A stretch of DNA of 35,937 nt, taken from the NCBI GenBank assembly GCA_021107945.1, contig JAIORV010000172.1, positions 1 through 35,937 on the forward strand. Reading direction: 5' to 3'. Below the pieces are notes generated by a model. It saw nothing but the letters and a program-made list of their open reading frames with translations. It was not told the DNA's origin and did not search any database. The position numbers and the translations under genes were made by a program. Below, piece after piece: positions 31,174 through 35,541 of the stretch (position 1 is its first letter; each line of letters opens with the position of its first letter). The stretch is from Vulcanimicrobiota bacterium (GTDB lineage Bacteria > Vulcanimicrobiota > JAJTBE01).

Positions 31174-33846
31174 TTAGCCAATCATATTCAGATCCGATAT
31201 GAAACCCCTGATATCCTTATATCTATCCTGTCCCTCGCGGCAGGCTAACTCCAGGACTTCTCTTAACGCCGGTGAGACTGTATGATGCCATTCCTGCTTG
31301 TCGGCATCCTGATTGTAATAACTTCTGTTTCCCAGGTAAAACATCAATCTGGCAAGGGATGTTATGTCCTTGCCGTCTCCGTCTCTGTCGTTGCCGGGTA
31401 AACGCGTCGGAATTGTTTCGCTGAATCTTTCCACATTGTAATCGACCAGTTTTAATACGCCGTGAATATCAAGAACCAGAGAGTCTGATTTGATTTCTCC
31501 GACTTGATAAGGTTTTGGGTTGTGATGAAGGTAATTAAGTGCGGACGATATTTCAAGTCCAAATTTGAGAAGCTCCTTTTGTGACAGGGGCTTTTTATAT
31601 ATTTTCAATAAACTTTCCAGGTCAAGTCCTTCAATGTTTTCCATAACCATATAGACCTTATTTTCCTCATTAAAACCATAAAGAATCTCTGCAAGATTTA
31701 TATGCTTATATTCCTCCAATCGTCCGATAATTTTACTGAGATTCGTGCTCCAGGATTTTAGTTCGTCCTTCTTCATATCTAAATCCGAAGCGACTATCTC
31801 CCTGAGAACGTATTTTTTTCTTTTACTGCTATCTTCTACAAGATATATATCTCCATGCTCACCTTTTGCCAGTAACTTCAAAACAAAAAATCGATTTTTA
31901 AATAACTTGCCGATCCCTAATGTTGCTTTTTTCTGTTCGGGTTCCACAGGCTTTATTTGGGGCTTTTTTTTCTCCAGCAGTTTGATTTTAAAGGGTGTCT
32001 GAATTCTTTTTTCCCCGGGCTTTTCCAGGTGCTTCAGTATTCTTACTAATTCCCTTTCATTAAGACTTGCAGGTTTCTTCTCTTCTTCGAAAGCAGATGG
32101 GGTTACCTTTGCCGACGGTTTTTCGAGAGTGGAAGGTTCCGGCGCAAACTCTTCCGGGTCGATCAGATCCTCCGGTGAAACAATTTCCATTGATTCTATA
32201 AATACTTTTTCTTCTTCAAGCTCCTTCTCTTCCTCCAGGAAGCTTTCCGGGGTCAGTATCTCACTTTTTTCCGGAATCTTATCCTCTATCTCATATGGTA
32301 ATATTTCTTTAAAATCATCCTCAAATGGCCCCTTTTCCATATTCCAGGATATCGAAACCCCTTCTTCAATTTCCCCATCCGGTTCGGCATCCAGTTGGAC
32401 TATATCAGGATGAATCGGCTTCAACCTTCTTAAGCGGATCTCCTCGTTTCTTTCTCTCTCGACCGCCTTTTCCATCATTTCCTCGTGTCGTCTTGTGTCC
32501 GACTCGATTCTTTCCACTATCTTCAAAATTTCCGGATCTTCCGTTTTTAACATTTCCAGGTATTTGTATTCAATAATTGAGCTTTCGAGATCCCTGCCAA
32601 TAGTGAACATAACCCCCTTTGCCAACTCCCTGTTCAGAACCTTTACCGTCAAACCCTTCAGACTTTCGATAAGCAGATTAATATCGATCCTGCTGAAGCT
32701 GAAATCAAACACGACGGCCTGCATATTTTTCGATACGATTTTCTTTATCCTGTCAATCGCTTTTGAATGTCCCACTTCCTCGTTTCTCAATTTATTCCAG
32801 AATCCCTGATCTTCTCGCCATGTTTTCGCGCAGGCATCATATAAGCGCGCCAGGATCATCTCTGCCCTTGATAGAAGTGAAAGAATCTCGATAGATTTAC
32901 TATTATTTTCCTCATTGTTCTTCATCATCAATCCTCCCCTTTTTATTCCCACAACCTCATAAAGATTATGCTCACCTGATTTTCCCGCAAGGGACATTCT
33001 GAATATCCTTCCAATGTCTATAATATCTTTTACCTTTTTGTATGTTTCTTCAGAGATAAGAAGTCTTGTTCCCGTTTTCTTGTTTGCGTTCTCAATCCGA
33101 CTTGCGAAGTTGACTGAATCGCCTATTGCAGTAGCTCTTCTATTCGGTCCCGCCCCCACAGCTCCTATTACGGCCTCGCCATAATGAATCCCGATTCGAA
33201 TATCGAGATGCTTATGAAACGCTACAGACAAGTATTCATTGAATTCATCCATCGCCTCAAGCATCTCGACGCCCGTTCTTACTGCATGCTCAGCGCACTG
33301 TTCTTCATCGTCCGTTCCAAATAAAGCCATCAGACCGTCACCCATGAAATTGAATATACTTCCCCCATTTGAGCTGATTATAGGTTGAACCCAGTTGAAG
33401 TACCTGTTCAATACATGTATTGCATCATATGGGAAGACCTGCTCCGCAAACGGAGTGAATCCCTTTATGTCGGCAAACAGGATTGCTAATTTTATCTCTC
33501 TTCCGACGGATTCAATGTCGGACCCGGCATCTAATTGATTGGAAAGCTTCTCATCTTCCCTGTCAAGAACAAGTCTTCTTACTTTAACATCTCCACTTAC
33601 TCTTGTCTGGCATGCAAGTCTCACCTTGGGACCGAAATTGAGCTTTTTTGCAATTGCCTCCTCTTTCTCATTCCTTGGCAGGCAAGCCTCCGGGTTTTCC
33701 AAAATAAGGACCCTGCAAGTCGAGCACCGGGCATTTCCCCCACAGGCACATGTATGGGGGATGCCGGCCTCCCTGGAAACATCAAGGATTGTCTTACCGT
33801 TTGCAATGCATTCCATATCACCGGGATCAAAATGTATTTTTTTCAT
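31174..33846 (-). CDS. [2Fe-2S] ferredoxin - class III cyclase - ferritin-like - pseudokinase fusion
   Basis: This 890-aa cytoplasmic protein has four parts. Residues 1-95 are a [2Fe-2S] ferredoxin domain (Cys35, Cys41, Cys44, Cys79; spacing Cx5Cx2C). Residues 115-300 are a class III nucleotide cyclase with metal Asp126 (FADIKGFT), Asp170 (NFMGDG) and the GDSVNFASRIE motif. Residues 318-470 are a helical ferritin/rubrerythrin-like domain (RAEMILARLY, NEEVGHSKA, DTRRHEEMM). An acidic Pro/Glu linker leads to a kinase-like domain (about 655-890) that lacks the beta-3 Lys (YVLREI), the HRD Asp (VGEIKSDS) and the Asn, but keeps DYN for DFG, so it is probably a pseudokinase. It is likely a redox- or iron-responsive second-messenger source. 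ATG 33846 has GGGGG six bases upstream. Substrate (ATP or GTP) is not decided. Confidence 0.88.
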   Translation of the reverse strand: MKKIHFDPGDMECIANGKTILDVSREAGIPHTCACGGNARCSTCRVLILENPEACLPRNEKEEAIAKKLNFGPKVRLACQTRVSGDVKVRRLVLDREDEKLSNQLDAGSDIESVGREIKLAILFADIKGFTPFAEQVFPYDAIHVLNRYFNWVQPIISSNGGSIFNFMGDGLMALFGTDDEEQCAEHAVRTGVEMLEAMDEFNEYLSVAFHKHLDIRIGIHYGEAVIGAVGAGPNRRATAIGDSVNFASRIENANKKTGTRLLISEETYKKVKDIIDIGRIFRMSLAGKSGEHNLYEVVGIKRGGLMMKNNEENNSKSIEILSLLSRAEMILARLYDACAKTWREDQGFWNKLRNEEVGHSKAIDRIKKIVSKNMQAVVFDFSFSRIDINLLIESLKGLTVKVLNRELAKGVMFTIGRDLESSIIEYKYLEMLKTEDPEILKIVERIESDTRRHEEMMEKAVERERNEEIRLRRLKPIHPDIVQLDAEPDGEIEEGVSISWNMEKGPFEDDFKEILPYEIEDKIPEKSEILTPESFLEEEKELEEEKVFIESMEIVSPEDLIDPEEFAPEPSTLEKPSAKVTPSAFEEEKKPASLNERELVRILKHLEKPGEKRIQTPFKIKLLEKKKPQIKPVEPEQKKATLGIGKLFKNRFFVLKLLAKGEHGDIYLVEDSSKRKKYVLREIVASDLDMKKDELKSWSTNLSKIIGRLEEYKHINLAEILYGFNEENKVYMVMENIEGLDLESLLKIYKKPLSQKELLKFGLEISSALNYLHHNPKPYQVGEIKSDSLVLDIHGVLKLVDYNVERFSETIPTRLPGNDRDGDGKDITSLARLMFYLGNRSYYNQDADKQEWHHTVSPALREVLELACREGQDRYKDIRGFISDLNMIG
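32923..32939 (-). promoter_or_regulatory. In-frame internal ribosome-binding site and ATG ATG
   Basis: Within the fusion gene, at the junction after the cyclase domain (codons about 303-308), GGGGAGG (32939-32933) is followed by ATTG and two in-frame ATG codons (32928 and 32925). The second ATG is seven bases from the SD, an ideal spacing. Translation from here would give a 583-aa ferritin-like/pseudokinase protein. It may be a relic of a two-gene arrangement or a live dual start. Confidence 0.6.
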
Positions 33847-35203: not shown

Positions 35204-35292
35204 TGCTGTGTTATTTATATTTACAGGAGGAACAATCCATATATAGACAAAAATTCTAAAGACAGGATATACTAGTTTTTTTAGAGGTGAGG

Positions 35293-35541
35293 ATGTTGAA
35301 GACTTATATTTTCGCAGTAAAGATTCAGGAGGAAGAAGATAAGCGTTGGAGTGTCTGGATTCCTGATTTACAAGGATGTACTTCCTGGGGTTATTCAAAA
35401 CAGGAAGCTCTGGAGAATATCAAAGAAGCATTACAATTGTATGTTGAAGTTATGATTGAAAAAGGAGAACCATTACCGGCAAATACTGAACTTAAAACCT
35501 TAAAGCTTCTTGATTCTCCGGCGGTGGCGATAGCTATATGA
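35293..35541 (+). CDS. hicB: HicB-like antitoxin
   Basis: This 82-aa HicB/UPF0150 protein has the conserved VWIPDLQGCTSWGYSKQEALENIKEALQLYVEVMIEKGEPLP core, a partial RNase H-like fold that binds and neutralises HicA. The frame opens at GTG 35287, but ATG 35293 is better because GAGGTGA (35284-35290) matches the anti-SD and gives a normal spacing. It lacks an obvious C-terminal DNA-binding domain, so autoregulation may need another element. The gene overlaps hicA by four bases (ATGA). Antitoxin comes first, the less usual order for hic. Confidence 0.92.
   Translation: MLKTYIFAVKIQEEEDKRWSVWIPDLQGCTSWGYSKQEALENIKEALQLYVEVMIEKGEPLPANTELKTLKLLDSPAVAIAI

Follow-up and report, generated by a model that had tools for sequence, protein, structure and literature searches.

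The question raised by this locus is whether the open reading frame at positions 31174..33846 (minus strand) of the window, the whole 35,937-nucleotide stretch of DNA analysed here, encodes one multidomain sensor or the joined products of two genes. The frame is read from 33846 to 31174, opens with ATG and runs for 890 codons to its stop. Its product would comprise, in order, a [2Fe-2S] ferredoxin, a class III nucleotide cyclase, a ferritin-like helical domain, an acidic linker and a kinase-fold domain. Three of these parts gave matches above the Pfam cut-offs: Fer2 (aa 13-83, E 4e-9), Guanylate_cyc (aa 120-289, E 5.7e-21) and Pkinase (aa 656-805, E 2.9e-12). Because these scores lie well above cut-off, chance motifs can be rejected as the source of the ferredoxin, cyclase and kinase assignments, and these three modules of the 890-aa frame are real. 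The acidic linker (31927..32418, minus strand; aa 477-640) is Glu/Lys/Pro-rich by composition.

The N-terminal part consists of a ferredoxin domain (33598..33810, minus strand; aa 13-83) with four cluster cysteines (C35, C41, C44 and C79) adjoining a cyclase domain (32980..33489, minus strand; aa 120-289), which places it among the ferredoxin-cyclases. The cyclase domain retains the metal-binding aspartates D126 and D170 as well as the transition-state residues N246 and R250, while its base-specifying positions are occupied by N166 and T239. An earlier note on this DNA had pointed to the four cysteines and both metal aspartates and had stated that ferredoxin-cyclase fusions are known; all of this was borne out, aa 1-302 being of a known type, with approximately 43% identity to proteins from Rhizobium and Hymenobacter. 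The lysine that specifies adenine in adenylate cyclases is absent and replaced by Asn166, so that either cAMP or cGMP is allowed as the product. In the two closest soluble relatives this position is Asp and Asn, and in another sequence compared (L080) it is Lys.

The plasmid collection gave its best matches in R. gallicum and R. etli (aa 1-302, approximately 43% identity) and in Hymenobacter (aa 14-298, 43% identity). All of the phylum cyclase matches listed start at aa 77 or later, and hence none of those listed covers the ferredoxin, which suggests that the ferredoxin-cyclase gene was probably acquired from outside the phylum. The Hymenobacter volaticus protein (WP_245126431.1) and the Rhizobium gallicum plasmid ORF are both soluble ferredoxin-cyclases (Fer2 + Guanylate_cyc) which share with the present frame the domain order, the cluster cysteines, the cyclase catalytic residues, the approximately 43% identity over aa 1-302 and the replacement of the adenine-specifying Lys by Asp or Asn. 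They differ from the 890-aa chain in what follows the cyclase, since both lack the ferritin-like and kinase parts: the Hymenobacter gene is complete at 308 aa and has nothing after the cyclase, whereas a Rieske domain follows in R. gallicum. The latter ORF, of 485 aa (1926-3383 of L078, Rhizobium gallicum plasmid NZ_CP006880.1), thus adds a further redox centre to the ferredoxin-cyclase. Membrane-anchored ferredoxin class IIIb adenylate cyclases have also been described, such as Rhodopseudomonas palustris Q132R4 (PMC4821796). There, too, the ferredoxin directly precedes the class III cyclase, but proteins of the Q132R4 type have a 6TM cytochrome-b-like anchor, while the 890-aa chain begins at the ferredoxin (PMC4821796).

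The domain that follows (32419..32928, minus strand; aa 307-476) was characterized through its relatives, an AF2 model, a fold search and a profile search. The window's own ferritin-like stretch gave only chance-level matches in Pfam and NCBIfam, which were discarded. A phylum search with this part found three relatives in two distant genomes: one gene of 199 aa, and two tandem genes of 175 and 157 aa. All three are single-domain ORFs (157-199 aa) that stand alone. A genome-contig search with the family alignment returned two loci on the same two contigs. The plasmid collection held no match to this part. One of the relatives showed a Rubrerythrin (Pfam) match just under the cut-off (E 4e-4), and the family profile searched against the PDB matched best to TM1526 (E 0.008) and EncB (E 0.02). 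The AF2 model, built on a four-row alignment, is entirely helical (pLDDT 84.4, pTM 0.81) and contains the EEVGH (356-360) and RRHEEM (from 452) motifs by which a helical domain had first been recognized here. The top PDB neighbours of the model, MJ0754, aldehyde-deformylating oxygenases and Dps-like proteins, are all ferritin-like. The best fold match had E 0.011 and a TM of approximately 0.6, with none at E <= 0.001, and a ferritin-like fold for aa 307-476 is therefore likely, though short of proof.

A working diiron site in this domain is doubtful. Like the ferritin-like diiron-carboxylate proteins TM1526, EncB and MJ0754, the domain is predicted to be a helical bundle with most of the ligand positions, and alignment with TM1526 shows that E329, E357, H360, E421 and H454 are kept. 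Unlike them, it lacks the helix-4 ligand Glu, and its sequence and structure matches to them are weak. The helix-4 ExxH position reads T451-R-R-H (TRRH), so that Thr451 stands in for the ferritin-type diiron Glu. The three relatives have Ser, Thr or Ala here; the Glu is thus missing from all four sequences, and the full ligand set E, ExxH, E, ExxH is incomplete. In the tandem genes (L018 1453-2512, the same genes also being present in L025), which are stand-alone and diverged from each other, the helix-2 ligand Glu is replaced by Gln in one copy.

The C-terminal kinase-fold domain (31177..31926, minus strand; aa 641-890; Pkinase E 2.9e-12) has degenerate catalytic motifs. Loss of at least one of the beta-3 Lys, HRD Asp and DFG Asp usually marks a pseudokinase (PMC12599244). 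In the present domain the beta-3 Lys is replaced by R682 and the HRD Asp by E784, whereas DFG reads DYN with D802 retained. On these residues aa 641-890 is a predicted pseudokinase, as the earlier note had proposed from the missing Lys and HRD Asp; that description needs a correction, since K-to-R and D-to-E are both conservative exchanges and the domain still has its DFG Asp. The fold test that the note had set for residues 318-890 left its reading standing, as the kinase fold there is clear and the ferritin-like fold likely. An AF2 model of the kinase part alone had a pLDDT of 33 and was set aside. A calcium-loop-like DxDxDG motif, NDRDGDGKD (window 31366-31392; aa 819-827), lies within the pseudokinase C-lobe.

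In a tree of 33 kinase domains, the window's domain falls in a phylum-wide clade of 14 rows (support 100/99), where its sister is L002, from the same genome (support 99/98). Its branch is long, however, and the support values therefore overstate how secure this placement is. The HRD Asp is missing from 12 of the 14 clade rows, the window's included, and is kept in L002 and L072; in L002, however, the beta-3 Lys is replaced by Arg and the DFG Asp by Asn. Outside the clade, the other 19 rows comprise the HRD kinases plus a few other domains with degenerate motifs. The fully read clade members L002, L056 and L057 share the degenerate catalytic motifs at a kinase-like N-terminus, followed by what resembles, by eye, a transmembrane segment and a beta-propeller-like repeat region, where Pfam matches are weak. 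In contrast to the 890-aa chain, these proteins have other C-terminal regions and lack the ferredoxin, the cyclase and the ferritin-like part. Membership in a family kept across the phylum speaks against the notion that the C-terminal parts are functionless passengers of a recent fusion and that the ferredoxin-cyclase alone works, as does the persistence of a 584-aa C-terminal part without a stop or frame break. The degeneracy of both the ferritin site and the kinase motifs is consistent with such passengers, and a ferredoxin-cyclase does work as a complete gene elsewhere, but on balance we consider this quite improbable.

Among the genomes and collections searched here, the four-part combination was found only in the window. 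It was absent from the 149 phylum genomes searched; the whole protein had no relative in the genome-contig search or the viral-contig search, and no report of the architecture was found in the literature searched. The earlier note knew of no family that adds a ferritin-like domain and a pseudokinase to a ferredoxin-cyclase, and no other genome or collection searched here supplied one. It had also taken conservation of the fusion in another genome as a test of its reading, and the 149 genomes gave no such case, the test being a weak one as none of them is closer than the same phylum. The protein is thus a new combination of known kinds of domain, of which the ferredoxin-cyclase part is itself of a known type.

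At the join of the two halves, a Shine-Dalgarno-like sequence, AGGGGAGG (32933..32940, minus strand), precedes an ATGATG (32923..32928, minus strand) that is a candidate internal start at aa 307/308, with the TTG codon 306 just before it; the DNA across the join reads AAAAAGGGGAGGATTGATGATG. The predicted duplex at the join is -10.5 kcal/mol, versus -9.8 at the ORF's own start, and among the 257 in-frame ATGs internal to the window's genes it ranks in the top five. The cyclase homologues stop at around aa 302-308, and the start of two of the three ferritin-like ones lies within a few residues of aa 307, so the join coincides with the homologue ends. Codon 306 is also a single change from TAG or TGA. 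No sharp break in GC or GC3 along the ORF marks the join such that the fusion could be dated or placed.

These features could result from an assembly or sequencing error that merged two adjacent genes at an A/G run, the first ending near aa 305 and the second starting at ATG 307/308. One base fewer in the run AAAAAGGGGAGG before the join would create a TGA overlapping the ATG, and the nearness of codon 306 to a stop and the position of the homologue ends also suit this explanation. It would, however, need a single error exactly at the join, and the frame continues through the join, flanked on both sides by sequence of ordinary coding composition; we therefore regard it as improbable. The sequence features most likely reflect a genuine fusion, specific to this lineage, in which two genes became one through loss of a stop, perhaps accompanied by internal translation. 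Because the join has the form of a natural gene end and start with a strong internal Shine-Dalgarno and ATGATG, a separate 584-aa ferritin-like/pseudokinase product may be made from the internal start.

In the resulting scheme, to which we give about an even chance of being right, a ferredoxin-cyclase gene of the known soluble type, probably from outside the phylum, would have come to lie upstream of a lineage-specific ferritin-like and pseudokinase gene, and loss of the intervening stop would have placed both in one frame. The ferredoxin cluster would most likely gate the dimeric cyclase through its redox state or its integrity. The ferritin-like bundle, whose diiron site is incomplete, and the pseudokinase would most likely have roles in interaction or regulation and not in catalysis, and the internal Shine-Dalgarno and ATGATG would probably still yield the 584-aa protein beside the full-length chain. 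Two observations count against this fusion with a second product. Equally strong Shine-Dalgarno-like sequences precede approximately 2% of the internal in-frame ATGs in the window's genes, and C-terminal additions to a ferredoxin-cyclase occur in one chain without implying a second product, since R. gallicum has its Rieske domain in one ORF.

The earlier note had envisaged a one-chain sensor in which iron or redox state at two sites tunes the cyclase. All four modules of that proposal are present, but the missing helix-4 Glu and the internal start signals at the join weaken the rest of it. If only the 890-aa protein were made, the ferredoxin and ferritin-like domain would together set the cyclase output, with the pseudokinase docking a partner. 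The single unbroken frame, the retention of most diiron ligand positions (E329, E357, H360, E421 and H454) and the acceptance of a second C-terminal redox domain, Rieske, by related ferredoxin-cyclases are in keeping with such a chain. Nevertheless, with start signals exactly at the join, homologues of both halves encoded as separate genes, the fusion in no other genome searched and the helix-4 Glu missing, it appears a possible but unlikely arrangement. Both ideas could also be combined, with the ferredoxin and a ferritin-like metal site controlling the cyclase of a full-length protein, the pseudokinase docking, and an internally translated ferritin-like/pseudokinase partner made in addition; this seems quite improbable. 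Since the second iron site lacks a complete ligand set and translation may split the chain, the idea that two iron sites control the cyclase is a tentative hypothesis.

If expressed whole, the preferred fusion would couple cyclic-nucleotide output to redox state, perhaps also to metal state, and to a kinase-like scaffold, in a bacterial phylum that has received little study. With two products, the locus would be a gene fusion at an early stage, one that has kept the old start signal. In either case, the frame and the Rhizobium Rieske version together indicate that ferredoxin-cyclases tolerate extra C-terminal modules.

The 890-aa ORF stands alone in the window. Two opposite-strand genes lie downstream, which we take from their sequence to encode subunits resembling those of glycine dehydrogenase, and a divergent radical SAM/SPASM gene lies upstream. 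An 84-aa HicB-like antitoxin gene (window 35287-35541) is located close to the contig end.
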